Below the pieces are notes generated by a model. The model ran no database searches and had not been told where the DNA came from. It worked only from the letters and a program-made list of their open reading frames with translations. 64,000 bases of DNA from Steroidobacteraceae bacterium (GTDB lineage: Bacteria; Pseudomonadota; Gammaproteobacteria; Steroidobacterales; Steroidobacteraceae), in NCBI GenBank assembly GCA_025458905.1, contig JALORN010000004.1:1-64000 (forward strand). The letters run 5' to 3'. Shown here piece after piece: positions 22,900 through 58,402 of this stretch (within the stretch, counting starts at the first letter, position 1; each line of letters opens with the position of its first letter). A program made the position numbers and the translations under genes.

Positions 22900-23826
22900 T
22901 CAGGGCGGCACGGCCCGCCAGGCCTGCGCCAGCTCGGCGCCGGTCGCGAACCAGACGCCTGGCTCGCGGCGCAGGTCGCTCAACAGTTCGCGCAGCATGC
23001 CGAAGCGATACGGCAGGCCGACCACGTACGGAGTCAGCGGCAGGCTGAGGATGCGCCGGCCGTACGGCCCCGACTCGGCGAGCAGGCGCCGGAACTGGTC
23101 GCGCACCTGCTCGGCATACTCTGCCTCGGAGTGCCGGTACTCGACCAGCACCTGGCGGTCGGAGAGCTCGTGCGAGTGTGGCATCGCCAGCAGCGTGCCG
23201 GCGCCGGTGTCGAACTCGTAGGGCAGCTCGTCGTTGACGAAGTCGCAGAAGTACTCGAGGCCACGGGCCGCGAGCAGTGCGGCGGTGCGCGGCGACTCGC
23301 AGCGCGCCGGCGACAGCCAGCCGTGCACCGGGCCGGCTCCCGCCTGCCGCAGCACGGCGAGGCACTCGTCGACCAGCAGGCCCTCGGCGGTCGCGTCGAG
23401 CCCGCCGTGGTGGAGCCGGTCCATGTCGACCCCGTGCGCGACCACCTCGTGCCCGTCGCCTCGCAGGTCGGCGATCAACTGCGGATAGCGTTCCGCGACC
23501 GCGGAGTTCACCGCGAAGCTGGTGCGCAGGCCGAGCTCGCCGAACAGCCGCAGCAGCCGGTAGGCACCGACGCGGTTGCCGTAGTCGCGCGTCGTGTAGT
23601 GGCGAAGGTCCGGGTAGGCCGTGACCATGCTGCCGGGCGCCTTGAACGGCTTGCCGAGCGGGTTCAGCGGGAAGAACTCGAGGCTGGTGCAGATCCACAC
23701 CGCGAGGCGCGCGCCGTTCGGCCAGGGGTGCGCCGGCTGCTCGAAGTGCGGGCGCCAGCGGTACCAGTCCTGGTCCATGCCGTGGCGACGGCGCGGGTAG
23801 CGCAGGTAGTCGTCGGGAAGGCTCAT
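22900..23826 (-). CDS. polysaccharide deacetylase family hydrolase (PuuE-like), copy 2
   Basis: A 308-aa cytosolic protein with a NodB-type beta/alpha fold. HYTTRDYGNRVGAYRLLRLF, EVVAHGVDMDRLHHGG, GWLSPARCESPRT and LSLPLTPYVVGLPYRFG are shared with its upstream neighbour and with PuuE-type allantoinases. In those enzymes this fold hydrolyses cyclic amides instead of sugar acetyl groups. The start overlaps the stop of the neighbour by four bases. Together with the cysteine hydrolase upstream this makes a three-gene catabolic operon. The substrate, probably a cyclic amide or ureide, cannot be named with confidence. Confidence 0.82.
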   Translation of the reverse strand: MSLPDDYLRYPRRRHGMDQDWYRWRPHFEQPAHPWPNGARLAVWICTSLEFFPLNPLGKPFKAPGSMVTAYPDLRHYTTRDYGNRVGAYRLLRLFGELGLRTSFAVNSAVAERYPQLIADLRGDGHEVVAHGVDMDRLHHGGLDATAEGLLVDECLAVLRQAGAGPVHGWLSPARCESPRTAALLAARGLEYFCDFVNDELPYEFDTGAGTLLAMPHSHELSDRQVLVEYRHSEAEYAEQVRDQFRRLLAESGPYGRRILSLPLTPYVVGLPYRFGMLRELLSDLRREPGVWFATGAELAQAWRAVPP

Positions 23827-24740
23827 GCGGCCCCCGGCTGGCGGCGCGCGATGTCGGCGAGTGCCTCGTCGTAGCAGTGGGCGTAGTAGTGCTCGGCGAT
23901 CTCGCGCGCGGTCGTCACCCACACGCCCGGGTGCGAGGTGATGTAGCGCAGCGCCTCCTCGAACGGCCCGATGCGGTGCGGATGCCCGACGAGATAGGCA
24001 TGCAGCGGGATGCACATCACCGTGCCCGACGAGGCGCCTTCCTCGTACAGCGTGTCGAACTGGCGGCGGATCATCTCGCCATAGGCGCGCGGCGTCGCGA
24101 GGCAGCTGCCATAGGCGATCACGTCGTTGATCTCCAGCGAATAGGGCATGCTGATCAGTCGGCCGCTCGCCACCTTCACCGGCTGCGGCTGGTCGTCCTG
24201 GAACAGGTCGCAGGTGTAGAGGATCCCGTACTCGGCCAGCAGGTCCATCGTGCGCTCGGTGTGCGTCAACGCGGGCGCGAGCCAGCCCGCAATGGTCTGG
24301 CCGGTGGCCTCGCGCACGGTGCGGATCGAGTCCTCGATGATCGCGCGCTCCTGCGCCTCGTCCATACCGTAGCTGTAGCGCGTGTTGTAGATGCCGTGCG
24401 AGAAGAACTCCCAGCCGCGCTCGACGCCGTCGCGGACCAGCTCCGGATGGTGCTGGCACATCGCCACCGACAGCGACACCGAGCCGCGCACGCCGCAGCG
24501 ATCCATCGCCTCCATCATCCGGTAGTGGCCGACGCGGTTGCCGTAGTCGCGGTGCGAGTAACCCAGCACGTCGGGGTAGGGGCGGGGCCACGGCTGGCGA
24601 TGCGGGTTCGGCGGCGGGTCGAGCTCGTAGTACTCGATGTTGGGCGCCACCCAGAACGCGACGCGCGCGTCGCCCGGCCAGCGGATCGGCGGCCGGTCGC
24701 GGTAAGGCCAGAAATCATAGAGCCCCGGATCGCGCTTCAT
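23823..24740 (-). CDS. polysaccharide deacetylase family hydrolase (PuuE-like), copy 1
   Basis: A 305-aa paralogue of the downstream gene. It has the same skeleton: YSHRDYGNRVGHYRMMEAMD, WEFFSHGIYNTRYSYG with a likely metal-binding histidine, TIAGWLAPALTHTERT, and MCIPLHAYLVGHPHR. The two copies are clearly diverged, which suggests a heteromer or successive steps. It overlaps the amidohydrolase upstream and its paralogue downstream by four bases each. Enzymes of this fold usually need a divalent metal; that matters because a Zur-like box lies upstream of the operon. Confidence 0.84.
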   Translation of the reverse strand: MKRDPGLYDFWPYRDRPPIRWPGDARVAFWVAPNIEYYELDPPPNPHRQPWPRPYPDVLGYSHRDYGNRVGHYRMMEAMDRCGVRGSVSLSVAMCQHHPELVRDGVERGWEFFSHGIYNTRYSYGMDEAQERAIIEDSIRTVREATGQTIAGWLAPALTHTERTMDLLAEYGILYTCDLFQDDQPQPVKVASGRLISMPYSLEINDVIAYGSCLATPRAYGEMIRRQFDTLYEEGASSGTVMCIPLHAYLVGHPHRIGPFEEALRYITSHPGVWVTTAREIAEHYYAHCYDEALADIARRQPGAA

Positions 24741-25444
24741 CGCCCGGCTCCGGGGGCGCCGGACGACGACGTGCCCGTCGCCGGGATCGCGGCGAGCGCG
24801 CGCTGCACCTCGGCGAGCGGCAGCACGTCGGCGTACTTCAGGGCGAGGTCGGTCAGGTTGGCGTAGTGGTAGCTCTCGTGCTTGTCGGCGACGCACTCCT
24901 CCGGGACGATGCAGCGGTAGCCGCGGCTCAGGCCGTCGACGGCAGCCGCACGGACGCACCCGGAGGTCGAGCCGCCGGTGATCACCACCGTGTCGCAGCG
25001 GTGCCAGACCAGCAGCGACTGCAGCGGCGTCTCGTGGAACGGCGAGGGCATCTTCTTGCAGTAGACGACGTCGCGCTCGCGGTCCACGTGACAGCGCTCG
25101 TCGAAGGCGGCACGGTCGGAGCCGAACTTGATGTTCTGCAGCGAGTCCGGCGTATTGCTGCGCGTCCCCCAGATGCCGGCGTCCTCGCCCGAGTCCATGT
25201 AGGCGACATAGGTCCAGACCACCGGCCAGCCACGGCTGCGGAACAGCGCCGCGAGCGCATTGACGTGCTCGATCTGCGCCGGGTCGTTCTCGTAGGCCGT
25301 CTTGTAGAGGTCGGTTCGCGTGTAGGCCTTCTGCAGGTCGATGTTGACGAGCGCCGGGCGCCCGCCGAACCCGAAGCGTGCCCGTGCAGGATTGGCGCGG
25401 ACGGTGTCGTAGATCTGCCGGGCAGTCAGCGAGGTGCGTTCCAT
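24737..25444 (-). CDS. isochorismatase-family cysteine hydrolase
   Basis: A 235-aa cytosolic enzyme, probably an amidohydrolase. The catalytic Asp lies in ALVNIDLQKAY near residue 35 and the nucleophilic Cys in GGSTSGCVRAAAVDG near residue 170. FHETPLQSLLVWHRCDTVVITG is typical of the N-carbamoylsarcosine amidase and ureidoacrylate (RutB) branches. The ATG at 25444 starts MERTSLTARQIYD; the longer frame upstream reads through the Zur-like box and is not plausible. It is the first gene of the operon with two PuuE-like enzymes, so the pathway is probably degradation of a cyclic amide to a carbamoyl intermediate and ammonia. The start codon is 38 bp from the Zur-like box. Confidence 0.85.
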   Translation of the reverse strand: MERTSLTARQIYDTVRANPARARFGFGGRPALVNIDLQKAYTRTDLYKTAYENDPAQIEHVNALAALFRSRGWPVVWTYVAYMDSGEDAGIWGTRSNTPDSLQNIKFGSDRAAFDERCHVDRERDVVYCKKMPSPFHETPLQSLLVWHRCDTVVITGGSTSGCVRAAAVDGLSRGYRCIVPEECVADKHESYHYANLTDLALKYADVLPLAEVQRALAAIPATGTSSSGAPGAGR

Positions 25445-25481: not shown

Positions 25482-25493
25482 ATGTTATAACAT
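25482..25493. promoter_or_regulatory. Zur-type operator between the amidohydrolase operon and the CobW-Zur operon
   Basis: A perfect 12-bp palindrome ATGTTATAACAT lies in the 85-bp divergent region. The same core recurs at 29905 and 47853 and, with one mismatch, at 52362. Zur boxes of beta- and gammaproteobacteria have a GTTATA/TATAAC core, and the downstream operon encodes a Zur-family protein, so autoregulation is likely. It could also repress the divergent amidohydrolase operon. Confidence 0.75.
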
Positions 25494-25529: not shown

Positions 25530-25892
25530 ATGCAAGAGATCCACACTGCAGTCGACGTGCCGCACGTCCGGCCGAGCGATTTCGCCGCCTGCGCAGTGGC
25601 GATCGCATCGGCGCCGGGTACGTCGGCGTCGTTCTCCGGACTGGTCGAGCGGATCGCCGACGAGAAGGCCTGGGATGCCGACTACGCGCGCGCCATCGCG
25701 CTGCGCTACCTGGCCCTCGGTCGCTACCTCCAGTCGACGCCGCGTCCTTCCGGTCTTCCCGAGCTGCTCCTGGTGCTGGCGGCAGCCGCGACGCCGGTCT
25801 CGGCGGACCATGGCTTCGATCCCCGACTGCTGGAATCGGTCGCGCGCCAGTGCGGCGCGCGCCTCGGTGCCGCCAATGCACGCGCGACCTGA
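25530..25892 (+). CDS. hypothetical protein in the zur operon
   Basis: A 120-aa protein, the first gene after the Zur-type box. It is helical and soluble-looking ([41 protein letters not shown]), with few cysteines or histidines and no signal peptide. I do not recognise the family. It is followed five bases later by the CobW gene, so it is co-transcribed with a zinc-type GTPase and its regulator. That is the only clue to its role. Confidence 0.65.
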
Positions 25893-25896
25893 GTCG

Positions 25897-27120
25897 ATGC
25901 CGACCCCCCTCGACTCCGCTGCCCGGCTGCCCGTGACGGTGCTGTCCGGCTTCCTCGGCGCCGGCAAGACCACCTTGCTGAACCACGTGCTGCGCAATCG
26001 CGAAGGCCGTCGCGTGGCGGTGATCGTGAACGACATGAGCGAGGTCAACATCGACGGCGCGCTGGTCCGGGCCGGGGGAGCAGACCTGTCGCGCACCGAG
26101 GAGCGCCTGGTCGAGTTCTCCAACGGATGCATCTGCTGCACGCTGCGCGACGACCTGCTCCAGGAGGTGCGGCGCCTCGCGGGCGAAGGTCGCTTCGACT
26201 ACCTGCTGATCGAGTCGACCGGCATCTCCGAACCGATGCCGGTCGCGGCCACCTTCGCGGTGCGCGACGAGGGCGGCTTCTCCCTGTCCGACGTCGCCCG
26301 CCTCGACACCCTGGTCACCGTGGCCGATGCCGCGACCCTGGTGCGGGATTTCGGCTCGACCGACATGCTCGCGGACCGCGGCGAGACGGCAGCGCCGGAC
26401 GACGAACGGAGCGTCGTCGACCTGATGACCGACCAGCTGGAGTGTGCGGACGTGATCGTGCTGAACAAGGTCGATCGCGTCGATGCCGCCCAGAAGCACC
26501 AGGCACGGGCGATCATCAAGGCACTCAATCCGACCGCTACCCTGCTCGAGGCGCAGCACGGACGCGTGCCGCTGGAGCGGGTGCTGGACACCAGGGCCTT
26601 CGACTTCGAGGCGGCGCAACGGGCACCGGGCTGGGCGCGGGCGATGAGCGGTGACCATGCGCCCGAGACCGAGACCTATGGCATCGCGAGCTTCGTCTAC
26701 CGTCGCTGGCGGCCGTTCCATCCGGCGCGGTTCATGGCTTTCCTGAACTCCGACTGGCCGGGCGTCGTCCGCAGCAAGGGGTACTTCTGGCTCGCCTCGC
26801 GCTACGACTGGGTCGGCTCGATGTCCCAGGCGGGCGGCGCGCTGACGCACGAGGCGGCCGGACTGTTCTGGGCGGCCGCGCCCCGCGACAGCTGGCCGCA
26901 GGACGCCGAGGCGCTGGCGGGCATACGAGAAGTGTGGCGCGAGCCCCATGGCGACCGCCGCCAGGAGATCGTGATCATCGGCATAGGACTGGACGAAGCG
27001 GCGCTGACCGCCCGGCTCGACGCCTGCCTCCTGACGGACGGCGAATGGGCCGCCGGCCCCTCGGCCTGGGCGACCTACGAGGATCCCTTCCCCCTCTGGC
27101 GTCTCGTCGGCAACGAGTGA
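25897..27120 (+). CDS. CobW/COG0523 family metallochaperone GTPase (ZagA/YciC-like)
   Basis: A 407-aa cytosolic GTPase. The P-loop [13 protein letters not shown] lies at residues 18-30, the metal-binding CxCC (NGCICC, C78, C80, C81) follows, and IESTGISEP and LNKVDRVD complete the G domain. A CobW_C domain follows with WRPFHPARF and the [15 protein letters not shown] segment typical of the YciC branch. COG0523 proteins load metals into client enzymes, and Zur-controlled members serve zinc during starvation. I chose the ATG at 25897; one at 25876 overlaps the upstream gene. Its TGA overlaps the ATG of zur. Confidence 0.93.
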
Positions 27121-27671
27121 TGAAAGGGTCGGCCCCCCGGGAGGCTCCGTCGCGGCCCCCTCCCGCGCCGACCGGGCAGGCCAGGGCCGCGGACCTGGGC
27201 GACCTCGAGGCCTGGTGCCTCCAGGCGGGCCTGCGGATGACGAGCACGCGTCGCGAGGTCCTCGACGTGCTGCGCGCGCACCCGGTGCCGCTGAGCGCCT
27301 ATGAGCTGATCCGCATCCTCTCAGTCCGGCGTCGTCGCAAGGTGTCGCCGCCGACGGTCTACCGGGCGCTGGACGCACTGCGGGACCACGGCCTGATCGC
27401 GCGGATCGCGAGTCGCAACGCGTTCCTCGCGCGCGAGTGCCCGGCCTCGCGCGACGCCACGCTGATCTACCTGTGCATCCGGTGCGGTTCGGCACGCGAA
27501 GTGAGCGATCCGACCATCGCACGCCGCGTGGCGATCGACGCCACCCGGCTGGATTTCCACGTCGCGCGGGAGATCCACGAGGTCGAGGGGGTATGCGGCG
27601 GCTGCGCCGGGGGCTCCGTGGTCAAGGCTTCGGCCGGAACACCTTCATCCGCTCCGTGTGGGTCTCGATGA
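27120..27671 (+). CDS. zur: Fur-family zinc uptake regulator (Zur)
   Basis: A 183-aa DNA-binding repressor. After a 25-residue Pro/Ala-rich extension comes the winged-helix domain (LRMTSTRREVLDVLRAH, PPTVYRALDALRDHGLI). The dimerisation domain has two CxxC pairs (C119/C122 in YLCIRCG and C159/C162 in GVCGGC), the structural zinc site, and a DFHVAREIHEVEG metal-binding strand. Absence of typical Fur residues and coupling to a CobW gene favour Zur. The ATG overlaps the cobW stop. The last 15 residues run past the family end and overlap the 3' end of mog on the other strand by 50 bp. Confidence 0.88.
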   Translation: MKGSAPREAPSRPPPAPTGQARAADLGDLEAWCLQAGLRMTSTRREVLDVLRAHPVPLSAYELIRILSVRRRRKVSPPTVYRALDALRDHGLIARIASRNAFLARECPASRDATLIYLCIRCGSAREVSDPTIARRVAIDATRLDFHVAREIHEVEGVCGGCAGGSVVKASAGTPSSAPCGSR

Positions 27672-28185
27672 AGGCGCCGCCCGCGAGATCGATGCAGTAA
27701 GGCACGGCTGGGAACACCGCCTCGAGATTCTCCCGGATCGCCTTCGGGCGACCCGGCAGGTTGACGATCAGGCAGCGACCTCGCAGCCCGGCGGTCTGTC
27801 GCGAGAGGATCGCCGTGGGCACGTGGCGCAGTGAGGCCGCCCGCATCTGCTCGCCGAACCCGGGCAGTAGCCGGTCGCAGACCGCGACCGTCGCCTCGGG
27901 CGTGACGTCGCGCGGCGCAGGACCGGTGCCGCCGGTCGTCACCACCAGGCTGCAGCCGGCTTCATCCACCATGCGCAGGAGTGCGCGCTCGATCTCGGGC
28001 CGCTCGTCCGGCACGACTGCGTACTCCGCGCGAAACGGCGTCGCGATCCAGTCGTGCAGCAGCGCGAGGCAGCTCTTTCCCGGCACGTCCTCGTACACGC
28101 CGGCGCTGGCGCGGTCGGACACGTTGATGACGCCGATGACCAGCGGCCGAACGTGGTCGGTGCCACCCGGCGTCGAGTCCTGCAT
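27622..28185 (-). CDS. mog: molybdopterin adenylyltransferase
   Basis: A 187-aa enzyme of the MoaB/Mog family, which adenylylates molybdopterin before molybdate insertion. VINVSDRASAGVYEDVPG at the N-terminus, TTGGTGPAPRDVTPEAT in the centre and LIVNLPGRPKAIRENL near the end match Mog. It is the last gene of a minus-strand run behind a CobW GTPase and a Zur-type box, so its expression may rise in zinc limitation. Mog being in a zinc-type operon is unusual; no other molybdenum-cofactor genes are in the window. Confidence 0.9.
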   Translation of the reverse strand: MQDSTPGGTDHVRPLVIGVINVSDRASAGVYEDVPGKSCLALLHDWIATPFRAEYAVVPDERPEIERALLRMVDEAGCSLVVTTGGTGPAPRDVTPEATVAVCDRLLPGFGEQMRAASLRHVPTAILSRQTAGLRGRCLIVNLPGRPKAIRENLEAVFPAVPYCIDLAGGAFIETHTERMKVFRPKP

Positions 28186-28201: not shown

Positions 28202-29569
28202 TCAGTCCGCGAGGCAGGCGTCGAAGCCGTCGATCAGTGCCTGCGTGTCGAGGTTGCGGCCGATGAATACCAGCTGCGTGCGCCGCGGCTTCTCGCCCCA
28301 GGGGCCGAGCGTGGTGTTGTCGGTCAGCATGTGCACGCCCTGGATCACCACGCGCTGGTCGACGCCCTTGAAGTTCAGGAAGCCCTTCATGCGGTAGATG
28401 CTCGCGCCCTGCGCCTGCAGCTCGCGCGACAGCCAGTCCGAGAAGCGGCGCGGGTCGAGCGGCTCCTCGGTCTCCAGGCTGATCGAGCCGACCTCGTCGT
28501 CGTGGGTGTGCCCGGCCGCGAAGGCGCGCTCGAGCCCCGGGCGCACCGGCCGGCCCTGCGGGTCGTGCAGGGCCAGCGCGAACTCCTCGGGCAGGTGCTG
28601 CGTCACCAGCCAGTAGCGGCCGGGCGCGTCGACCTGCACCGGGAAGCGCTTGCTGCCGGTGCCCTGCAGGTCGAGGATCGCCAGCGACTCGGCGGGCCGC
28701 AGCAGCGTGCCCGGCGCGTTCGCTTCGACGTCCTCCGCGAACCACTTGAACGCACGCTCGGCGGCGACGCGCGCCGGGTCCTCGGCCTCCACGGGCGGTG
28801 CCGGGAACAGCGCCAGCCCCATGTCCGGATCCGGTCCCTCGCCGAGCACGAGCTCGTGTCGACCGGCCGCGAGGTCGAACCGCCCGGCCCACTCGAACGG
28901 GTACTCGGGCTCGAGGAAGGTCGGCTTGTACTCGAGCGCCCGCGACAGGTCGAAGCCGCCGATGCCGAGCACGCTGTCGACCGGCACTGCGGCGCGTGCC
29001 GCCGGGTCGGAGCGCACGATGCGCGCCAGCGCGTTCATCGCGCGCACCCGGCGCTCCACCGCCTCGAGCTCGGTGGCGGTCACGAGGTCGGTCTTGTTGA
29101 GCACGATCACGTCCGCGAACGCCACCTGCTCGCGCGCCTCCTCGTTGGCGTCCACCTGCTGCCCGAAGTGCCGTGCATCGACCAGGGTGACGATGCCGTC
29201 GAGCGCGAACCGCTCGCGCATGTCGTCGTCGACGAAAAAGGTCTGCGCGACCGGGCCCGGGTTGGCCATGCCCGTGGTCTCGACGACGATGCGGTCGAAG
29301 CGGTCGCGGCGCTTCATCAGGCTGCCGAGGATGCGGATCAGGTCGCCGCGTACGGTGCAGCAGATGCAGCCGTTGTTCATCTCGAAGATCTCTTCCTCGG
29401 CGTTGATCACCAGTTCCTGGTCGACGCCGATCTCGCCGAACTCGTTCTCGATCACCGCGATCCGCTGGCCGTGGTTCTCGGTGAGGATGCGGTTGAGCAG
29501 GGTGGTCTTGCCGGCGCCGAGGAAGCCGGTGAGCACGGTCACCGGGACCTTGTCGTTCGTGTCAGTCAT
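28202..29569 (-). CDS. CobW/COG0523 family metallochaperone GTPase, second paralogue
   Basis: A 455-aa GTPase. The P-loop [13 protein letters not shown] lies at 15-27, CxCC at C68, C70 and C71 (NNGCICCTV), VETTGMANPGPV and VLNKTDLV complete the G domain, and a long CobW_C half carries an AGHTHDDEV histidine pair. About 50 residues longer than the other CobW here, and of a different subfamily. The ATG at 29569 has a GGAGG site six bases upstream. It overlaps the small cysteine protein upstream and is followed by mog 16 bp later. A Zur-type box precedes the unit, which supports zinc delivery under starvation; the client is unknown. Confidence 0.92.
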   Translation of the reverse strand: MTDTNDKVPVTVLTGFLGAGKTTLLNRILTENHGQRIAVIENEFGEIGVDQELVINAEEEIFEMNNGCICCTVRGDLIRILGSLMKRRDRFDRIVVETTGMANPGPVAQTFFVDDDMRERFALDGIVTLVDARHFGQQVDANEEAREQVAFADVIVLNKTDLVTATELEAVERRVRAMNALARIVRSDPAARAAVPVDSVLGIGGFDLSRALEYKPTFLEPEYPFEWAGRFDLAAGRHELVLGEGPDPDMGLALFPAPPVEAEDPARVAAERAFKWFAEDVEANAPGTLLRPAESLAILDLQGTGSKRFPVQVDAPGRYWLVTQHLPEEFALALHDPQGRPVRPGLERAFAAGHTHDDEVGSISLETEEPLDPRRFSDWLSRELQAQGASIYRMKGFLNFKGVDQRVVIQGVHMLTDNTTLGPWGEKPRRTQLVFIGRNLDTQALIDGFDACLAD

Positions 29570-29864
29570 GCGAGCCTCCACAGGGTGTCGGTGCGAGCCA
29601 CGCGGCGCGCACGCGCGACTCGTCGAGTTCGGCCAACGCGCAATGGATGCGGCACTGGCGGCGCGGGGCGTGCGGCGCGAACACCGCGATCACCACTTCC
29701 CGCGGCGGGCAGCCGGGCTCGGCACAGCTGAGCTCGGTCACCAGCACGGTGGCGGACTCGCCGAGCCCGAGCGTCGCGCAGGTCCAGTCGCGGACCGCGG
29801 CGCGCTGCGCGGTCTCGCGCAGGGCGGCGGCAGGGTCGCGGTCGAGTCGCAGCAGGTCGGCCAT
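29562..29864 (-). CDS. small cysteine-containing protein of a CobW-linked operon
   Basis: A 100-aa soluble protein. The core ATVLVTELSCAEPGCPPRE has two cysteines spaced for metal or disulphide binding, and RRQCRIHCALAEL adds a third and fourth together with a histidine. It is the first gene after the Zur-type box at 29904 and overlaps the start of the CobW GTPase. I have seen similar short proteins next to COG0523 genes but know no function. A metal-carrying partner or client of the GTPase is a reasonable guess, based only on the cysteines and context. Confidence 0.72.
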   Translation of the reverse strand: MADLLRLDRDPAAALRETAQRAAVRDWTCATLGLGESATVLVTELSCAEPGCPPREVVIAVFAPHAPRRQCRIHCALAELDESRVRAAWLAPTPCGGSHD

Positions 29865-29903: not shown

Positions 29904-29917
29904 TATGTTATAACATA
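29904..29917. promoter_or_regulatory. Zur-type operator of the small protein-CobW-mog unit
   Basis: TATGTTATAACATA is a perfect 14-bp palindrome that contains the same 12-bp core as at 25482. It lies 40 bp upstream of the 100-aa gene. The stop codon of the upstream amidotransferase-fold gene is inside the palindrome, so the operator is also read as the last codons of that gene. Confidence 0.75.
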
Positions 29918-34047: not shown

Positions 34048-34064
34048 GCCTACAGCCTAAATCG

Positions 34065-34085: not shown

Positions 34086-34103
34086 GCATCTGCGAGCCAG
34101 AAT

Positions 34104-34121: not shown

Positions 34122-34136
34122 AGGACAGGGAAGGGC

Positions 34137-43852: not shown

Positions 43853-44575
43853 TTAGATAGAGTCCGATCCGCCTCTCAGCACCACGAGGCTGCCCCTGAT
43901 CGCGCCTCGCAACCCTGACGCTGCCGCTTCCTCGATGATCTCCGCCGGCGATGCGACCCAGCACTCGAATTCGGTGATCTGTCGGTCGATTTCGGTGTCG
44001 TCGATCGCGGCGACGTACGTCATGCGCCATTTCTGGCGCCGGTCGTCGATGCGCGTCGCTGCGGACCAGCCCTGGTAGTCGATACGGCCAACTCGTACCG
44101 TCGCGAAGCGGATTTCGGGGATGTCGAGCGAGGTTGGGCACAGCACCTCGACCAGGATGCAGCCCGTCGGGGCGAGGCGCCGAGCCAGCAGGCCCCACAG
44201 CCGGCGCCGCTCGTCGGGACTGAAGTGCACGGCCGAGGCGCTCGCGACCGCGGCGGCGATCGTACTCGGCAAGGGCGCGGCGAAGATCGACATCGGGAGG
44301 ATGCTCACCCGTCGTCGCAGGCCCGGGTCGGCCCACACCCGCGTCATCAGCGCCGACCTCATCGACGGGTCGGGCTCGACGGCGAGGATCTCGGCATCCG
44401 GAAGCGCACCGGCGATCACCTGCACGGTCAACCCGGTGCCCGCACCGATGTCGACGATCGGATCTCCCATCGGCGCGAGACCCTCGAGAGCCGAGCGGAT
44501 CTGTCGGTCGACCCGGTCGTGCTGTGCGGCAGCCATCGGGTCATAGAACTGGGCCGTCACCGCATAGTCGTTCAT
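43853..44575 (-). CDS. class I SAM-dependent methyltransferase in a TonB-receptor operon
   Basis: A 240-aa cytosolic enzyme. [16 protein letters not shown] begins the fold; [20 protein letters not shown] is SAM-binding motif I near residue 42, [15 protein letters not shown] motif II, and [17 protein letters not shown] and [16 protein letters not shown] follow. The ATG overlaps the stop of the TonB receptor by four bases, so it is made with the receptor and AraC regulator. That context suggests methylation of a transported or synthesised small molecule, perhaps a metallophore. No nicotianamine-synthase or opine-dehydrogenase partner is visible. Confidence 0.85.
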
Positions 44576-46746
44576 CGGAGGTCCGCGATGAAACCCAAGC
44601 CGACGACTCGCTCGCGGGCGTAGGACGCTCCTTCGACGCCGGGTCCGTACAGCACGCCGTTGAGTTCCTGCGCATCGTCGGTCAGGTTGCGACCGAAAGC
44701 GTAGATCTCCCTGCTACCGAATCGCAGGCCGACACGCGCGTCCAGGTTGCGCTGCGCCCGGAGATCGAAGCTGTCGGCGACATCGGCGGCGCGCCGGCCG
44801 ACGTACTGATGCGTCACGACGACGAGGGGCGTTGCGGAGCCACGCCCCACGGCGATCTCGGCGCCTTCGTACCGGAGCGTCGCGGTCGAGCTGAGCCGCG
44901 CCACGTTCGGGATGCGATTGCCGGCGCGAGCGCCGGAGATCACAGCGGCCTCGCGGATCTCGCCGTCCGTCCATGCCAGGCCGCCGGCGACCGACCAACC
45001 ACCACCCAACGCGTAGTCGCCCTGCAGTTCGAGGCCGAAGCTGCGCGTGTCTAGGTTCACGGGCAGGAACTGGAAACTGACGAAGTCGAGTACGAAGAGC
45101 TGCTCATCCGTGACGTCGTTGTAGAACGCGGAGAGCTCGAGGCGGCCCCGTCCGTCGGCCACCTCGGACTTCACGCCGGCTTCGTAGGTCCACGACGTGG
45201 ACTCGGCATAGCTCCTGCTGGCCTGGCCGAGCGCTGCGCCCAGCGTGAATCGGGGAAAGCCCCCGCTCTTGGCGCCCCGGCCGACCGTCCCATAGACGTT
45301 GACGTTCTCGGTGGCCTCGAACAGCAGCGCCGCGCGCCCGGTCCAGAGGTCAAAGCGGGCGGAGGACGACTCGGCGAACCGGTTGACGGTCCCTGGGAAC
45401 CCGACTCCGGTGAAGCTCGCATCCAGGCTCTTGTCGTCGCGCGTGAATCGCGCCCCGAGGGTCCCCTTCAGGCGCGGAGTCCCGAGCGGCGCCGACAGCT
45501 CGCCGAAAGCGGCATAGGAGTCGATGCCCTGCGTCGCCACCCGGTCGCCGTTCAGGAACGGCGAGAACGAGGAACGGTTGTCCAGCTCGACGTCGAAATC
45601 CGAGTTGAAGTAGACCAGTCCCGAGGCCCAGGCGATCTCCTGTCCCGGCATGCTCGAAAGGCGCAGCTCCTGGTGGAAGCGACTCTCTCGCTCCCGCCAG
45701 TCCGAGAAGGAGACGGGCGCCAGGAAGGCCGCGGCAGGCAGGCCGAACAGCGGGCCGTAGATGAGTCCGTCGGTATCGTCCGTCACCTGATCGTTCCGGA
45801 AGCCGTTCAGCGCCGTTATGGCGGTGAACCGCAGGTCGTCGAGTGCCACCTCCGAGGTGACGCTGACGCCCCATGCCGTTCGCGTCACGCGGTTCTCCGG
45901 TGCAAGCTCGACCGCCGCGCGCGGCTGGCCGCGCCGCACGTAGTAGAACGGGTCGCTGACCTGCCGGTCCGCGTTCACCGCCACCGTGAAGCGGGACCCG
46001 TCGTCTCCGGACGGGGTCACGACCAGCGTGCCGCGGGCGGCGTACGAGTCCCGGTCGCCGAGCTCGCCGCCGGCCGGTGCGACGTTGCGAACGAAGCCAT
46101 CGGTCGTCGAGGCGTGGAACGCCAGGCCGGCTGCGAGCCGGTCGGAAATCACGGGTCCCGAAATCGTGCCCTGCGCGAGACCGGTTCGCAGGTCGCCGGC
46201 TTCGAGCCGGACACGCCCGTCGAAGTCGTCGCCGGGCTTGCGCGTCGCGATGTTCAGCGCACCACCCTGGCTGTTGCGCCCGAACAGGGTTCCCTGGGGT
46301 CCGCGCAGCACTTCGATGCTTTGCAGGTCGAGGTATGCGAACTCCGAGGCGTATACCGGCTGGGGTACGCCGTCGACGTAGGTCACCACCGAACCATCGT
46401 CGGGACTGATGGCCTGGCTCAGCGGCCCGATGCCACGCAGCTGGAAGTATGCGAAGCGCCCGTCGTCGAAGCTGGTCAGCGAAAGGCCCGGAACCTGCCG
46501 GAACAGGCTGTGAGTATCGTCGATCCTGCGTTCCCGCAGTTCCGCTTCCCGTATGACCGTGACGGCGAAGGGTACGTCGCGCGCGGCCTCTTCGCGCAGG
46601 CGCGCGCTGACGATCACGGTCTCAGTCGGAGCGTGCTCCTGCGCCGCACGTGACTTTCTTGGACTCTCGCTGGCTTGCCCGGCGGCCAGTTGAAGGGGCT
46701 GGCCCAGCAGCGAGGCCACGACCAAGGCTTGCGCGCCGATACGCAT
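44572..46746 (-). CDS. TonB-dependent receptor in an AraC-linked operon
   Basis: A 724-aa receptor. The signal peptide ([16 protein letters not shown]) is followed by a TonB-box-like [14 protein letters not shown]. The plug has [20 protein letters not shown] and [20 protein letters not shown], features of the IroN/FyuA-type group. The barrel ends in [18 protein letters not shown]. The ATG at 46746 gives a proper signal peptide. The AraC gene frame runs 125 bp past this start, an unusually long overlap. The receptor is probably activated by the AraC protein, whose inducer may be the transported chelate. Confidence 0.9.
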
Positions 46747-47770
46747 CGATGTCCATCCCGGATTCACAGCGGTCAGGCAAGGCTGCCAGTCCGGGCAAGG
46801 CGAGCGTGTGTGTCGAGCGGGAGTCATGCGCGTACTGCGCGGGAGGATCACTGCGAAACCGCCGCCTGACCGTGCTCGGGAGGACGCCCGTGTGGCGGCG
46901 GAACGCGATGGCGAAACTGCGGGTGCATCCGTATCCGGCTGCGCGCGCCGCCTGCTCGACCGGGCAGCCCGCGAGCAGCTCCGCGATCGCGCGTTCCATG
47001 CAACGCGCTCGCACGTAGCCGAAGATGGTGACGCCGAACGCCCGCTTGAACTCCCGCTTCAGGAAGAACTCGTTCGTGCCGACGCTACGGGCGAGAGTCG
47101 CAATCGTGGGCGGGTCGAGGAGTCGCGCGTCGAGGTGCTCGCGGGCAGCCTCGAGCTTCTTGCGATGAGACAGCCGATACCTGCCCTGGTCGGTGCGCCG
47201 CTCGTGCGTCGCGGAGTCGACCTGTGTCGCGAGCAGCGCGAGTGCGCAGGACTCCAGAAAGAGCGTGCGTGCCGTGCCGGTGTAGGGGGTGGAGAACATC
47301 GACGCGACCATCCTCGCGCCCGCCATGTCCAGCGACGGCAGGCGGGCGACCGCGGCGTCATGCTGCGCGCGACGCGCCAGGTCGACGATGCATCCCGACG
47401 CGGGCGTCCGCCCATCGAGCAGGTGCTGCAACGCTTGCGGCGTGAATCGAAGGGCGACCGTGCGGAACCCGGAGACCGACAACCTGAAGCGGGACGTGCT
47501 GCAACGCGGCGCCGTGCCTGCCCAGACGTCCAGGGGCTGCGTATCGAAGACAGACCCCTCCAGGGCAAAGCGACTGCCGCCCTTCAGGTGGAAGCCGATG
47601 CCGAACACATCGTGTGGCTCTGCATACGAAAACTCGAGCGGCTCTTCCAGATCGAGTGCACTGAGCACCAGCGAGATGCCCTCGCGTAGCTGCCACGTCT
47701 CCACGTGCTCGCGGGTCGTCTCGATGTTGGGTTGCCACTCGCGAGTCGCCATCGCGTTGCCGGTGGTCAT
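46622..47770 (-). CDS. AraC-family transcription regulator with C-terminal run-on
   Basis: A 382-aa regulator. The N-terminal ligand-type domain (residues about 1-220) is followed by two helix-turn-helix motifs ([20 protein letters not shown] and [20 protein letters not shown]), as in PchR-type siderophore regulators. The family domain ends at [12 protein letters not shown], but the frame continues for about 75 residues of Arg/Ser-rich sequence into the receptor gene. A lost stop codon is the simplest reading. The start at 47770 has CAGGAGCG. The Zur-type box at 47853 lies 83 bp upstream, so zinc may control this activator. Confidence 0.85.
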
Positions 47771-47852
47771 GAACGCTCCTGCTCCCGGGAAGGGACTCGT
47801 CGGTGGATGCCGTTTTCTGCAGATCGGGATTGTCTTGCCCGGTAAAAAAGCA

Positions 47853-47864
47853 ATGTTATAACAT
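47853..47864. promoter_or_regulatory. Zur-type operator between AraC gene and TonB receptor operon
   Basis: ATGTTATAACAT, the same perfect palindrome as at 25482 and 29905, lies 22 bp upstream of the receptor ATG. It may serve both the plus-strand receptor operon and the divergent AraC gene. Confidence 0.75.
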
Positions 47865-47886
47865 ACCATTACGTCAGCGACAGAGA

Positions 47887-50016
47887 ATGATCGCCGTGCG
47901 CAAGTATGTAGCGGCCGTCCGCAGCCTCCTGTTCGTACCGCTCGCGTTCAGCGCGATCGTCGTGGCTTCCGCCGCCGAAACCCCGGCGCGCCGCCCTGCG
48001 CGGGAAACGCTCGAAACGGTGACCGTCACCGGCAACCGTCAGCTGACGGTCGCCGCCGTGGGCTCGCGGCTCGGTCTCTCGCCGAAGGAACTACCGGCGT
48101 CGCTGGCCGTCATCCCGCGCGATGCGTTGCTGCAGCGGGGCGACCAGTCGACCGCTGCGGCGGTGGCGCGCGCGCCCGGCTACGCCCCGGTCGGCATGAG
48201 CGCCTTCGCCGGCTCGGCGCTCGCCGCGCGCGGCTTCACCGGCAACAACTCGATCGCCCAGCTCTACGACGGCAACCGGCTGTTCGTCAGTGGCGGGGCA
48301 ATGAGCTTCCCGGTCGACACCTGGCCCTTCGAGCGGATCGAGGTGCTGTCGGGGCCCGCCTCGGTGTTGTTCGGGGCGGGCGCGATCGGCGGCGCCGTCA
48401 ACTACGTGCCCCGCGACATCCCGGAAGACCGGAGCCGCCACGAAGCCTTCCTCGGCCTCGGCAGCTGGGACACGCGTCGACTCGGGCTTGCGAGCGCCGG
48501 GCCGCTGTCCGAGGCGATCGGCTATCGCGCCAACGCGGTGTACAACGCCACCGATGGCTACGTGGAGCGCAATTCCAATGAACGCTGGGCCGTCTCGACG
48601 GCGCTGCGCACCCGCCTGCGCCCCGACCTGACGCTGACGCTGCTGTACGACGGCGGCCAGATCGACGACACGGGATACTTCGGCACGCCGTTGATCGATG
48701 GGCGGATCGACCCGCGGACGCGGCGTGTCAACTACAACGTGACCGACGCGCGCACCCGCTTCCGCAACGATTGGGGGCGTGCGCGCCTCGACTGGCAACC
48801 GGCCGACGGCCTGGCCCTGACCAACGAAGCCTACTACCTCGACACCACGCGCGAGTTCCGCAACGTCGAGAACTACACCTGGAACCCGATGACGGGCCGG
48901 GTCGACCGCAGCTTCAACTTCGGCACGGACATCGCGCAGGCGCAATGGGGTAACCGTCTCGACCTCCGTACCGACGGCGAGCTCGCCGGCCTCGGCCATC
49001 GCTCCCTCGTCGGCCTGGAAATCAACCGCATCCGCTTCGGCACGCGGAACATCACCGCAGGTTCGACCAGCGTCGAACCGTTCAACCCGGTCACGGGACG
49101 CTTCAGTCCCGGCGCCGGACCCGTCGCCACCCTGGGCACCGACACCGAGCAGGCCGCCGCGTACGCCGAAACTGCGCTCGACCTGTCGCGCCGGCTGAAG
49201 CTCGTCGCAGGCCTGCGTGCCGAGACGATCTCCCTCGCACGCCTCGACCGCATCACCGGCACGCGCGTCGACCTCGACTTCGAGCCCCTGACGTGGCGGC
49301 TCGGCCTGGTCTTCGCGGCCAGCGCCGAAAGCTCTCTGTACGCCCAGTACGTGACCGGCAACGACGCCGCCGGCTCCCTGATCAGCCTGCCTGCGACGAA
49401 CGCCGCCGAGCTGCAGACGGGTCGTCAGTGGGAGCTGGGCGCGAAGCAGTCGTTCTGGGACGGTCGCGGCGACTGGACCGTGGCGCTCTACCACATCGAG
49501 AAGGACAACCTCGTCTCGCGCGATCCGCTGCTGCCGACCGTCGCGCAGCAGATCGGTCGCCAGACCTCGCGAGGCGTCGAGGTGTCACTGTTTCTCGCCC
49601 CGCTGCCGAACCTCTCCATCGACCTCAACGCCGCCGTGCTGCGCGCCGAGTTCGCGGACTTCAACGAGCTGGTCGGTGGCACCGCGGTGTCCCGTGCCGG
49701 CAACCTGCCGCCGAACACGCCCGAGCGACTCGCCAGCGCCTTCGCGACCTGGCGCTTCGCCGGCGACTGGGAGGCGGGCGGCGGTGCGCGATACGTGGGG
49801 CCGCGCTTCTCCAACAATGCCAACAGCCTGCCGATCCCTTCCTATGTCGTCGCCGACGCCTTTCTGGGCTATCGCTGGCGCGAACGCAGCGTCTTCACTC
49901 TCCGGGTGCGCAACCTCACCGACGAGCCGTGGGTGGTCGCGCCCTACAACGCCGGCGCACAGTGGGCCCTCGGCGACCCGCGCTCGTACGAGCTCTCGGC
50001 GCAGTTCGATTTCTGA
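47887..50016 (+). CDS. TonB-dependent receptor under a Zur-type box (FecA/FhuE-like)
   Basis: A 709-aa siderophore-type receptor. The signal peptide (VPLAFSAIVVASAAETP) precedes the TonB box LETVTVTGNRQLT. The plug runs to about residue 190 (SALAARGFTGNNSIAQLYDG, LSGPASVLFGAGAIGGAVNY). The 22-strand barrel ends in ALGDPRSYELSAQFDF. It lacks the His-rich loops of ZnuD-type zinc receptors, so a zinc chelate is more likely than the free ion. The ATG at 47887 has only a weak ribosome site. A PepSY protein and SufE follow directly. Confidence 0.92.
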   Translation: MIAVRKYVAAVRSLLFVPLAFSAIVVASAAETPARRPARETLETVTVTGNRQLTVAAVGSRLGLSPKELPASLAVIPRDALLQRGDQSTAAAVARAPGYAPVGMSAFAGSALAARGFTGNNSIAQLYDGNRLFVSGGAMSFPVDTWPFERIEVLSGPASVLFGAGAIGGAVNYVPRDIPEDRSRHEAFLGLGSWDTRRLGLASAGPLSEAIGYRANAVYNATDGYVERNSNERWAVSTALRTRLRPDLTLTLLYDGGQIDDTGYFGTPLIDGRIDPRTRRVNYNVTDARTRFRNDWGRARLDWQPADGLALTNEAYYLDTTREFRNVENYTWNPMTGRVDRSFNFGTDIAQAQWGNRLDLRTDGELAGLGHRSLVGLEINRIRFGTRNITAGSTSVEPFNPVTGRFSPGAGPVATLGTDTEQAAAYAETALDLSRRLKLVAGLRAETISLARLDRITGTRVDLDFEPLTWRLGLVFAASAESSLYAQYVTGNDAAGSLISLPATNAAELQTGRQWELGAKQSFWDGRGDWTVALYHIEKDNLVSRDPLLPTVAQQIGRQTSRGVEVSLFLAPLPNLSIDLNAAVLRAEFADFNELVGGTAVSRAGNLPPNTPERLASAFATWRFAGDWEAGGGARYVGPRFSNNANSLPIPSYVVADAFLGYRWRERSVFTLRVRNLTDEPWVVAPYNAGAQWALGDPRSYELSAQFDF

Positions 50017-50018
50017 CG

Positions 50019-51548
50019 ATGCTGAAGCGGATCCGCACGCTGCTGATCGCGTTGCACCTGTACCTCGGTGTGGCGCTCTGCCTGCTGTTCGTGGTCTGGT
50101 TCGTCTCCGGCATCGCGATGGCCTACTACCGCTCTCCCGTGCTCACGGACGCGACCCGGCTCGCGTTCGCCGAACCGCTGTCGGACACCCCTGCGGTGCA
50201 GCGGCCTGCGGCGGTTCCCGGCCTCGCCGCGCAGTGGTCCGAGGTGGAGACGCTGCGCCTCGCCCAGTGGGGCGGTCGACCGCTGTACCGCTGGCTCACC
50301 CGCGATTCCGGCTGGCAAAGCGCGTGGGCGGACGATGGCAGCGCCGCACGCTTCGACGCCGCGGCGCTGCGCGCCGAGGCGCAACGCTGGTTGGAGACTG
50401 ACCGCATCGAATATCGCGGGGCCTGGCAAGCGGCCGGCCAGTGGAGCTACTTCAGCGCCGCCCGCGCGCATTACCCGCTGCACCGCTACTCGAGCGGGGG
50501 CTGGGCCGCGCGGGAGGTGCTGCTGTCGAGCCGTACCGGCGAGGTGGTGGTCGCCACGACGCTGCCCAGCCGACTGCTCTACTACCTCGGCCCGGGCCTG
50601 CACTACCTGTCGTTCTACCCGATCCGCAACGACGACCCGCTGTGGCGCGGTCTCGTCAACTGGAGCTCGGGTCTCGGCGCCGCCGCCTGCCTGTTCGGCC
50701 TGGTCCTCGGGCTCTGGCGGCTGCGCTGGCACGCCGATCACACCGATCGTCGGCTGATCCCGTACACGCGCTTCTGGATGTACTGGCACCACTGGACCGG
50801 CCTGGCCTTCGGATCGTTCACCCTCACGTTCGTGCTCAGCGGGTTGTTCTCGATGAATCCCGCGAAGATCTTCCCGCCGACCGAGATACCGGATCCGCTG
50901 CAGCAGGCCTGGCGCGGACCGGCGCCGCCGCTGGAGGCGGTGCCCGCCCTCGGCGGGGCGGGCCACCGACCAGGCCTGCGCGAGTACGAGTACCGCCGGA
51001 TCCGCGGCGCGCAGTTCAGCGTGGCGGTGGGCGAGGCGGGTGACCAGCGCCTGTTCCAGTGGCAGGGGGCCAACTGGCGACCGCGACCGCCCTTCACGGC
51101 CGCAGAACTGCGGGCGCTCCTGCAGCCGGTATCGCCCGCCCGCATCGTCGGCCATCGGTGGCTCCGGCAGTTCGACACGTACTACTACGCACGCAAGGAG
51201 CGCGCCCAGCCGCTGCCGGCGCTGCGCGTCGAACTCGGCGACGCACGGCGCACCTGGTTGTACCTCGAGCCCGCTTCCGGGCGCCTGTTCCTGCGCAGCG
51301 ACCAGGGAACCCGCACCCGCCGCTGGTTGTACAACGGCCTGCACAGCCTGGACTTCCCGTTCCTGCTCGCGCGCGAGCGGCTCTGGGAGGTCGTCATCTG
51401 GCTGCTGAGCCTCTGCGGGCTCGCGCTGAGCGTGACCAGTACCGTGATCGCCTGGAAGTGGCTACGGCGTCGCTCCCGCGCGCGCGCCGCCGCAACCACG
51501 CCGTCGCGCCACGCGCGCCTCGAGCCCGCGGCGGTCGATTCACGATGA
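50019..51548 (+). CDS. PepSY-associated TM protein (FoxB/PiuB-like)
   Basis: A 509-aa membrane protein. Four hydrophobic helices, with PepSY regions between them in the periplasm, are seen: RIRTLLIALHLYLGVALCLL, GAAACLFGLVLGLWRLRWHA, MYWHHWTGLAFGSFTLTFVL and WLLSLCGLALSVTSTVIAWK. Histidines in the helices (HLYLGV, HYLSFYP, YWHHWTG) may bind haem as in siderophore-reducing relatives. Such proteins help release iron from ferrisiderophores by reduction. Zinc cannot be reduced in that way, so its place behind a Zur-type box is puzzling; cobalt, iron or a redox-active ligand are options. It is two bases after the receptor. Confidence 0.88.
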   Translation: MLKRIRTLLIALHLYLGVALCLLFVVWFVSGIAMAYYRSPVLTDATRLAFAEPLSDTPAVQRPAAVPGLAAQWSEVETLRLAQWGGRPLYRWLTRDSGWQSAWADDGSAARFDAAALRAEAQRWLETDRIEYRGAWQAAGQWSYFSAARAHYPLHRYSSGGWAAREVLLSSRTGEVVVATTLPSRLLYYLGPGLHYLSFYPIRNDDPLWRGLVNWSSGLGAAACLFGLVLGLWRLRWHADHTDRRLIPYTRFWMYWHHWTGLAFGSFTLTFVLSGLFSMNPAKIFPPTEIPDPLQQAWRGPAPPLEAVPALGGAGHRPGLREYEYRRIRGAQFSVAVGEAGDQRLFQWQGANWRPRPPFTAAELRALLQPVSPARIVGHRWLRQFDTYYYARKERAQPLPALRVELGDARRTWLYLEPASGRLFLRSDQGTRTRRWLYNGLHSLDFPFLLARERLWEVVIWLLSLCGLALSVTSTVIAWKWLRRRSRARAAATTPSRHARLEPAAVDSR

Positions 51549-52039
51549 GCGCCACCGGCAGTCCGAGCGATCGTCGGAGCAGCGGCTCGCCGGGTCCGGG
51601 CCTGCCGTCCGACACGATCGCGGAAGCGCAGCGCTCGATCGTCGACGCTTTCCGCGGGCTCGAGGACTGGACCGAGCGCTATCGCTTCCTGATCGACCTG
51701 GGTCGGCGCCTGCCACCGCTCCCGCCCGAGCAGTGCGTCGAAGACAATCGACTACCGGGCTGCCAGGCCCAGGTCTGGCTCGTGTCGGAGCAGGCGGAGG
51801 GCGTGCTGGTGTTCCGCGCCGCGAGCGACGCCGCCATCGTCGCAGGGCTGATCGCTCTGCTCCTCAAGGTCTACTCGGGGCGAACGCCCCGGGAGATCCT
51901 CGCGACCGAGCCTGCGTTCATCGACACGATCGGGCTCGCGAGCCACCTGTCCCCGAATCGCGCGAACGGACTGGGCATGATGTACCGGCGCATCAGGGAG
52001 ATCGCGAGTCATTCTCTCGCTCTCGAAGCGCAGCCATGA
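51545..52039 (+). CDS. SufE family sulfur-acceptor protein
   Basis: A 164-aa cytosolic protein. After a 25-residue Ser/Pro-rich start, WTERYRFLIDLGRRLPPLP and CVEDNRLPGCQAQVWLVSE match SufE, including the persulfide-carrying Cys in PGCQAQVW. HLSPNRANGLGMMYRRIRE closes the domain. SufE passes sulfur from SufS to the SufBCD scaffold, or in some pathways to other acceptors. The ATG overlaps the PepSY stop by four bases. No other suf gene is near, so a dedicated sulfur-transfer step of this operon, or repair of Fe-S clusters during metal stress, is likely. Confidence 0.9.
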   Translation: MSATGSPSDRRSSGSPGPGLPSDTIAEAQRSIVDAFRGLEDWTERYRFLIDLGRRLPPLPPEQCVEDNRLPGCQAQVWLVSEQAEGVLVFRAASDAAIVAGLIALLLKVYSGRTPREILATEPAFIDTIGLASHLSPNRANGLGMMYRRIREIASHSLALEAQP

Positions 52040-52463
52040 AAGCCAGCCCGGTGATCTTCCGGACGTAAGCGGAGTAGCACTGCTGCATCAGCGCCGCCTG
52101 CCGGATCGCACTCGAGCCGCGCCGCAGCGCTGAACGCCTGTTCGTACCGACGCGTGCCGAGCACGACGGCAACGCGCCGATTCTTCGCCCTCCATGGGGC
52201 GAAGCACTGGCGGTCAGTCGTCGGCTGGTCCGAAAAGGCCGGACGCATCTCCGGACGTGGCGAGGCGCGCCAGAGATAAAGAGGGGACGAGAGCGGATGG
52301 CGTGCGGCGCCAAGCGGTTCCCGCGAGCAAGGCCATAGAGCATCACCCTGATTCGAAGGCAATGATATAACATTACTCGCCGTCACGACTTCGGGCACCG
52401 CGCAGGCCCGAATCTGCGATCGGTCGATTCGACTGGCTCTGCGTCTTCACTACCGGGGTTTCC
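52040..52463. other. 424-bp intergenic region with a Zur-like box
   Basis: No gene is supported on either strand. The right end holds a Zur-like box (52361-52374) about 90 bp before the receptor ATG. The rest is featureless. Confidence 0.5.
52361..52374. promoter_or_regulatory. Zur-like operator upstream of receptor and DUF3526 transporter
   Basis: AATGATATAACATT differs at one base from the palindrome AATGTTATAACATT, that is, from the core found at three other sites. It lies about 90 bp upstream of the receptor ATG. Confidence 0.62.
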
Positions 52464-54860: not shown

Positions 54861-54882
54861 TACCGAACCCGCGCTGAACGCC

Positions 54883-57671: not shown

Positions 57672-58402
57672 TGGGCGAACTCCGTATGCTTTCGGCAAAG
57701 GCCTTGACCAAGGACCACGGCACGCACCGGGCGCTCGACGCCGTCAGCTTCACGGTGAGGGCGGGGGAGATCTTCTGCCTGCTCGGGGCCAATGGCGCCG
57801 GCAAGTCGACGACGCTCAAGTTGTTCCTCGGCTTCCTGGAGCCGACGTCGGGCTCTGCCGAAGTAGAGGGTCTGGATCCGCAGCGGCAGCCGCAGGCGGT
57901 GCGGCGTCGGCTGCTCTACATCCCCGAGACGGTTGCGCTCTACGACGAATTGACAGGCTACGAGAATCTCGACTATTTCGCTCGTCTGGCCAGCGTGGAG
58001 GACCGTTCACCCGGGCGACTGCGCGATTCCCTGGCGGCGGCGGGCTTGGCGGCCGCCGTCTTCGACCGGCGGGTCGCCCACTATTCCAAGGGCATGCGCC
58101 AGAAAGTCGGCATCGCGCTCGCCATCGTCAAGGAGGCCAGGGCGCTGCTGCTCGACGAGCCCACCTCTGGTCTGGACCCTCAGGCGTCGGCTGAATTCCA
58201 CGACCTGCTCGTGCGCCAGCGCGATCGCGGAGCGGCGATCCTGATGGCGACCCACGACTTGTTCCGCGCGCGGGAGGTGGCCACCACGATCGGCCTCATG
58301 CAGTCCGGACGGCTGCGCCGGACGCTGGACGCCTCGACGGTGTCGGCGAGCGATCTCGAGGGGATTTACCTGGAGGAGATGCGTCCGCGCGGCTTCGGGT
58401 AG
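57671..58402 (+). CDS. ABC transporter ATPase of the DUF3526 system
   Basis: A 243-aa ATPase with GTG start overlapping the permease TAG by one base. Walker A is GANGAGKSTTLKLFLGFLEP, the signature is YSKGMRQKVGIALAIVKE (SKGMRQ instead of LSGGQ, normal for this branch), Walker B is ALLLDEPTSGLDP, and the switch His is in MATHDLFRA. It powers the two DUF3526 permeases, which is typical of an exporter. Together with the receptor upstream it may form an inner/outer-membrane route of unknown direction. Confidence 0.92.
   Translation: MGELRMLSAKALTKDHGTHRALDAVSFTVRAGEIFCLLGANGAGKSTTLKLFLGFLEPTSGSAEVEGLDPQRQPQAVRRRLLYIPETVALYDELTGYENLDYFARLASVEDRSPGRLRDSLAAAGLAAAVFDRRVAHYSKGMRQKVGIALAIVKEARALLLDEPTSGLDPQASAEFHDLLVRQRDRGAAILMATHDLFRAREVATTIGLMQSGRLRRTLDASTVSASDLEGIYLEEMRPRGFG

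Follow-up and report, generated by a model that had tools for sequence, protein, structure and literature searches.

Results

Palindromes and operons in the window. Three exact copies of the palindrome ATGTTATAACAT and one copy with a single mismatch, ATGATATAACAT, lie among genes of metal uptake and handling in the window, that is, the whole 64,000-nucleotide stretch of Steroidobacteraceae DNA that was analyzed (Table 1). They are the only four matches in the window when up to two mismatches are allowed. The site at 25482 is 36 bases ahead of a 120-aa open reading frame (ORF; 25530) and 37 bases from a divergent isochorismatase gene (25444), while the site at 29905 is 40 bases ahead of the minus-strand 100-aa ORF (29864) and overlaps the stop codon of the upstream ORF. 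The remaining two precede the ATG codons of TonB receptors, at 22 bases (site 47853, ATG at 47887) and 90 bases (site 52362, ATG at 52464). Judging by spacing and strand, each row of genes is probably one transcript; promoter scans, terminator scans, and Rfam added nothing.

Table 1. Features of the window discussed in the text
Feature	Positions	Strand	Basis or context
Isochorismatase-type hydrolase and two polysaccharide-deacetylase-like genes	22900..25444	-	Pfam; divergent from site 25482
Zur-type palindrome ATGTTATAACAT	25482..25493		Between zigA-zurB operon (+) and isochorismatase operon (-); counterpart at G089 L063:15503
120-aa protein, opens zigA-zurB operon	25530..25892	+	Relative at same place in G089, likeness by eye
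ZigA, COG0523 zinc metallochaperone GTPase	25897..27120	+	NCBIfam NF038288; Pfam cobW
ZurB, Zur paralog lacking the sensing site	27120..27671	+	Pfam FUR; comparison of zinc ligands
Mog-like protein, closes 29905 operon	27622..28185	-	Pfam MoCF_biosynth
Second COG0523 GTPase, not ZigA	28202..29569	-	Pfam cobW and CobW_C
100-aa protein, opens 29905 operon	29562..29864	-	BLASTP 8e-13 to a G764 ORF
Zur-type palindrome ATGTTATAACAT	29905..29916		Before 100aa-CobW-Mog (-); counterpart at G089 L063:10668
AraC regulator, TonB receptor, methyltransferase	43853..47869	-	Pfam; AraC start uncertain
Zur-type palindrome ATGTTATAACAT	47853..47864		Before TonB receptor-PepSY-SufE (+), beside divergent AraC (-)
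TonB receptor (siderophore-type), PepSY_TM protein, SufE	47887..52039	+	Pfam; TIGR01783
One-mismatch palindrome ATGATATAACAT	52362..52373		Window and genome pattern search
TonB receptor, two DUF3526 ABC-2 permeases, ATPase	52464..58402	+	Pfam
ZnuA, ABC-3 permease, ATPase importer	58657..61096	-	Pfam ZnuA and ABC-3; end of operon facing C105:68191
DUF2149, MotA/ExbB-like, 224-aa protein, C-terminal part of CobN	61202..64000	-	Pfam

An earlier, sequence-only reading of this DNA had placed the four sites, with the mismatch at 52362, exactly where the window pattern search found them, and had described each as lying just upstream of a metal-type gene or operon, with which the distances and the Pfam content agree. 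The regulon that it listed stood as to gene content, since Pfam confirmed two CobW proteins, two TonB receptors, PepSY, SufE, two DUF3526 permeases with their ATPase, Mog, and a Fur-family protein. Its extent was too small: the ZnuA-type importer at 58657-61096, the divergent genes faced by sites 25482 and 47853, and two further genomic places (below) were absent from it.

In the first operon, ZigA scores 622.6 bits against NF038288, above the equivalog cut-off of 600, and the ATG of zurB, directly behind it, overlaps the zigA stop codon (TGATG); the 120-aa protein matched no Pfam or NCBIfam family. The gene order of the isochorismatase/deacetylase-like row is shared, by eye, with G089, a genome of the same genus. 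The stop end of the Mog-like gene overlaps the 3' end of zurB. In the same 29905 operon, the second COG0523 GTPase fell below every NCBIfam cut-off, and the 100-aa protein, with no Pfam or NCBIfam family, has relatives that adjoin CobW in G089 and G764. The receptor at 47887 scores 231 bits against the siderophore-receptor model TIGR01783, above its cut-off of 223.5, so that "metal type" is right for this operon but "zinc" rests on the box. The divergent AraC-TonB-methyltransferase row is possibly under the 47853 site as well; a like set adjoins the site in L091, a soda-lake Pseudomonadales metagenome-assembled genome (MAG). For the importer at 58657-61096 the best NCBIfam matches were AztC/B/A, all below cut-off. 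The CobN gene (688.8 bits; L007) continues past the end of the window, and the 224-aa protein beside it belongs to no family.

Other metal-related genes are interspersed among these operons. Adjoining the 29905 operon (30560-36266), a TonB receptor gene (+) and, in divergent orientation, genes for Peripla_BP_2, an FecCD permease, and an ABC ATPase (-) make up an importer of B12/siderophore type, which has no separate box at up to two mismatches. A ferritin-like protein (38234-38689) and a plastocyanin/azurin-type copper protein (42668-43129) are also encoded there.

Genome-wide specificity. In the genome (4,276,071 bases in 109 contigs, 85.8% complete), six places match the palindrome with at most one mismatch: the four in the window, C105:68191, which is on the window's contig 4.2 kb past the window end, and C67:43119. 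A control scan with the pattern read backwards found no place in the genome. The fifth place faces a TonB receptor gene in one direction and, in the other, genes for DUF1826, CobN, the 224-aa protein, the MotA/ExbB-like protein, DUF2149, and the ZnuA-type importer; the sixth heads a row encoding a TonB receptor, ZrgA, an ABC ATPase, an FtsX-type permease, and DUF3299. All six places head metal-uptake or metallochaperone operons, and three of these operons contain families tied to zinc by name (ZigA; ZnuA, in the operon with CobN; ZrgA). The sequence-only reading had named a palindrome common away from promoters as the result that would count against it; the genome holds six copies, every one at an operon head. 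The fifth site (C105:68192-68206) doubles as a spaced box with an exact match, TGTTATATCATAACA, as found at Caulobacter znuK and ahead of importer genes at G065:C25:2555.

Promoters are presumably AT-richer than the genome mean, and an AT-rich palindrome might recur at them by chance. The sequence-only reading had already called recurrence by chance very unlikely in such GC-rich DNA; it has a negligible probability and is refuted by the counts (six genomic places against 0.054 expected from a first-order model of the window and 0.40 from a model fitted to its AT-richest 8 kb; a mean of 0.02 matches in 100 shuffled windows, none of which had four) and contradicted by G089, in which the corresponding operons carry the same sites.

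Likeness to Zur boxes. Sequence comparison lends good support to the palindrome being Zur-type and to its marking a Zur regulon of known type, larger than was first proposed. A Zur box predicted for the Rhodobacter group, GATATGTTATAACATATC (cited in PMC2706843), contains the present 12-mer exactly, although it comes from another class of bacteria and is a prediction rather than a footprint. In addition, E. coli Zur binds an hlyII probe that contains ATGTTATAACAT (PMC5916954). The skeleton bound by two E. coli Zur dimers, RNNNYRNNRYNNYRNNNY (PMC4219657), is matched at 8/8 positions by 9 of 13 sites and at 7/8 by the other 4; this match is weak evidence, since 6/8 positions are already fixed by the 12-mer and a full score of 8/8 is reached at 346 positions of the window. 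The zinc-uptake genes among the targets (the ZnuA operon, the ZrgA operon, and zigA) and a Zur with intact zinc sites elsewhere in the genome are as expected of such a regulon.

Alternatively, the boxes could serve another metal regulator, such as an iron-sensing Fur or a cobalt/B12-linked protein, with zinc incidental, given that the siderophore-type receptor and the PepSY, SufE, CobN, and FecCD-type genes have links to iron or cobalt too. We regard this as very improbable: ZigA, ZnuA, and ZrgA belong to zinc families, the Zur regulon of P. aeruginosa itself includes CobN and TonB operons (PMC4542158), the sequence is that of a published Zur box (PMC2706843, PMC5916954), and no cobalamin riboswitch was matched in the window at the Rfam gathering score. 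Against a purely zinc-based reading stands a PepSY-TonB pair of Caulobacter, which belongs to Fur rather than Zur repression (PMC4176598). Zur binding to some P. aeruginosa promoters needs no added zinc (PMC8531726), so zinc dependence may vary.

A Zur paralog that has lost three of four sensing ligands. The genome has three Fur-family matches, on contigs C68 and C22 (the latter beside a divergent cobW) and in the window. The window protein, here called ZurB, matches Pfam FUR at 45 bits (cut-off, 23.1), and its closest curated family is Zur, yet it fails the NF008646 equivalog cut-off (71.8 versus 167 bits), as does the intact C22 Zur (103.3 bits). Residues were numbered by E. coli Zur through alignment with chain 4mtd. 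In that protein, Cys103, Cys106, Cys143, and Cys146 form the structural zinc site, His77, Cys88, His96, and Glu111 form the regulatory site, and Tyr45 and Arg65 contact bases (PMC4219657).

ZurB keeps the four structural cysteines as CxxC pairs. In the regulatory site it retains Glu111 only, with Ala for His77, Arg for Cys88, and Asp for His96, so that five of the eight zinc ligands are present; C22 Zur has all eight. The implication of the sequence-only reading that the Fur-family protein of the window is the zinc-responsive regulator is not borne out, given three of four sensing ligands lost and an intact Zur on C22. The regulatory residues of G089 ZurB are identical to those of the window's protein, and those of the L091 protein are Ser, Arg, Arg, and Glu; Cys88 is thus Arg in all three ZurB proteins found, each of which keeps Tyr45 and Arg65. 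The single substitution C88S in E. coli Zur was enough to abolish repression in vivo as well as DNA binding in zinc-limited gels, and binding was much weakened even with excess zinc (PMC4219657). That C22 and the window's contig come from one organism is supported, though not proved, by the presence of both kinds of Zur in G089 and by similar GC (0.724 and 0.71).

Among 78 distinct aligned rows, which were chosen as good matches to ZurB and not at random, all ten residues are intact in 69, including C22 Zur. Only His77 is missing in four (G298, G253, G220, and G764), one has Asn for His96, and one is the C68 Fur. In a tree of such best matches (not a random sample), the three ZurB proteins, the four rows lacking His77, and Fur fall outside a branch of 60 other Zurs, with support of 91/86, below the 95 mark; L091 and Fur have very long branches, and ZurB forms one group in 35% of bootstrap trees. 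Among the records listed by literature searches there was no Zur paralog without its regulatory site, which does not prove that none is in print.

Conservation in related genomes. Across 200 genomes of the family, a close relative of ZurB was found only in G089 (63% identical); the others among the matches listed were at most 40% identical. G089 has four places within one mismatch of the palindrome, all heading matching or related operons: zigA-zurB with the divergent isochorismatase gene; 101aa-CobW-Mog; DUF1826 and znuCBA-type genes, divergent from an Fe/Mn superoxide dismutase gene; and methyltransferase, TonB receptor, and FecB/FecCD/ATPase-type genes. The superoxide dismutase gene (L063:3843-4502), opposite a one-mismatch site, is possibly a zinc-sparing replacement. 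Beside an exact palindrome on G089 contig C327, a 29-residue COG0523-like ORF (L064:7939-8028) looks by eye as if it were perhaps a gene remnant. Two G089 near-matches, on C195 and C350, were counted as chance; they need the outer bases relaxed to R/Y and lie inside predicted ORFs.

When the 24 genomes of the genus (own included) were compared, exact palindromes occurred in the two with ZurB and in none of the 22 without it, counted irrespective of whether a genome holds these operons. Intact Zur-like genes are present in most of the 24. With a looser pattern, 11 of the 24 had some match; in the nine other than the ZurB genomes, 12 of 14 places were read, one preceding ABC-importer genes (G065) and one a TonB-type ORF (G177), and none of the remaining 10 was assigned to zinc genes. 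A scan of the 24 genomes for the spaced box was noisy, with a match in at least 23 and controls exceeding matches in several; repeated on six genomes, it placed a spaced box ahead of the G065 importer genes and a related site before the G177 ORF. ZurB was found in neither genome.

Outside the family, a close-relative scan of the named genome collection returned L091 as the sole relative. Its ZurB-like gene (41% identical) is followed by a COG0523 gene, and ATGTTATAACGT lies upstream of a hydrolase gene preceding them; the opposite flank of the site holds genes for Fe-ADH, AraC, a TonB receptor, and a methyltransferase. Among the genomes whose paralog lacks His77, G764 carries an exact copy of the palindrome, flanked by ZigA (638.4 bits) on one side and by its Zur paralog, which a COG0523 gene follows, on the other, and G298 has a one-mismatch copy before its paralog and CobW, with a Mog gene 1.7 kb off. 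In G220, the paralog lies with SufE and znuCBA-type genes, with no copy within one mismatch; in G253, it adjoins a zinc-type cation-efflux gene, with no copy. A second Zur-like match is present in each of G298, G220, and G764, while G253 has one Zur-like match.

At loci of intact Zurs in the order and class, the 12-mer occurred within one mismatch in 6 of 51 (four exact), against 0 to 1 in 20 resamplings. The zur-cobW promoter on C22 has no copy of the palindrome within two mismatches. Between the divergent cobW and zur (L010, just before position 1408) it carries ATGATAACKTA (ATGATAACGTA or ATGATAACTTA), as do 10 of the 11 genus loci read; this motif may reflect overlapping divergent promoters or another operator.

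Discussion

We propose, with fair confidence, that these boxes serve to silence a zinc-scavenging gene set, that the C22 Zur is the likelier sensor, and that ZurB is most likely a zinc-independent modulator. When zinc is plentiful, zinc-loaded Zur would bind the boxes, probably with two dimers side by side across the promoters, and thereby silence the TonB receptors, the ABC importers, ZigA and the second COG0523 GTPase, and the DUF1826/CobN and ZrgA operons. When zinc is scarce, Zur would leave and the scavenging operons would be expressed. Since zurB is itself headed by a box, ZurB should be made when zinc runs out, and it would most likely modulate the same operators without zinc. It may act as a zinc-independent brake, a dominant-negative partner, or a rewired sensor.

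The intact C22 Zur is more likely than ZurB to be the sensor, with ZurB as a modulator, and the strongest counter-evidence is that, within the genus, exact boxes occur only together with ZurB. ZurB could instead be the metal sensor of the regulon through other ligands, box and ZurB forming one module, while C22 Zur controls something else. The strict pattern of exact boxes (2 of 2 genomes with ZurB, 0 of 22 without) and the boxless C22 zur-cobW promoter, with ATGATAACKTA in place of the palindrome, both fit ZurB as the box reader, and a box heads the ZurB operon in the window, G089, and L091. We nevertheless judge this arrangement improbable, since all three ZurB proteins have lost three of the four site-B ligands, the box also lies close to intact zur genes elsewhere, and boxes precede the G065 importer genes and the G177 TonB-type ORF in genomes where no ZurB was found. 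A division of labor in which ZurB alone reads the compact 12-mer, and intact Zur the spaced GTTA-N5-TAAC form, was not kept as a firm claim, because intact Zur loci carry the 12-mer, which also fits the E. coli two-dimer skeleton.

Returning to sensing by the intact C22 Zur, a more specific role for ZurB can be put forward only tentatively, as we think it somewhat less probable than its negation. ZurB may be a zinc-independent Zur in which Arg105, at the Cys88 position of E. coli Zur, forms a salt bridge with the retained Glu127, at the Glu111 position, that replaces the regulatory zinc and holds the DNA-binding form. The zurB operon should open only after zinc-Zur leaves, and ZurB would then be a starvation-made brake or dominant-negative partner. 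The paralogs lacking His77, which in four genomes lie beside ZigA/CobW, znuCBA-type genes, or a zinc-type exporter, would be intermediates.

The type of Zur regulon is known; what appears to be new, as read from the sequence, is a regulon-encoded Zur paralog without the sensing site. With six of six places at metal operons, the regulon is a clean bioinformatic case, and it ties unstudied genes to metal scarcity, including DUF1826, DUF2149, the 100-aa CobW partner, and the extra Mog and SufE copies. If the proposal for ZurB holds up, some bacteria carry a box-headed copy of their zinc sensor that is unable to sense zinc by the known site, which would add a layer of feedback to the textbook one-protein switch and offer a natural test of the role of regulatory zinc.

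Several known systems resemble this one in part. The Zur regulon of P. aeruginosa shares a ZnuD-type receptor, znuABC, COG0523 genes, and the PA4063-4066 ABC set, and its PA1921-1925 genes (methyltransferase, TonB receptor, and CobN) have likenesses here (PMC4542158, PMC8531726). Unlike in P. aeruginosa, zigA here shares an operon with a Zur paralog, most sites are on one contig, and SufE, Mog, and DUF3526 genes are included; the available text of those two sources describes no Zur paralog. The znuK/znuGHI genes of Caulobacter crescentus, in which a TonB receptor shares a Zur site with an ABC-2 ATPase and two permeases, are arranged like the operons at 52362, and the Caulobacter znuK site is matched by the core of the fifth site, TGTTATATCATAACA (PMC4176598). 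The Caulobacter box differs in having the spaced GTTA-N5-TAAC form, and the permeases are likened by description only, as DUF3526 is not named for that system in the available text of PMC4176598. COG0523 genes that follow Zur sites, in clusters that include DUF1826, have been reported (PMC2770081). The same source describes Zur-regulated DksA and PyrC paralogs that lack zinc residues and lie beside COG0523 genes; they are likewise box-headed and have lost ligands, but here the paralog is one of the zinc sensor itself.
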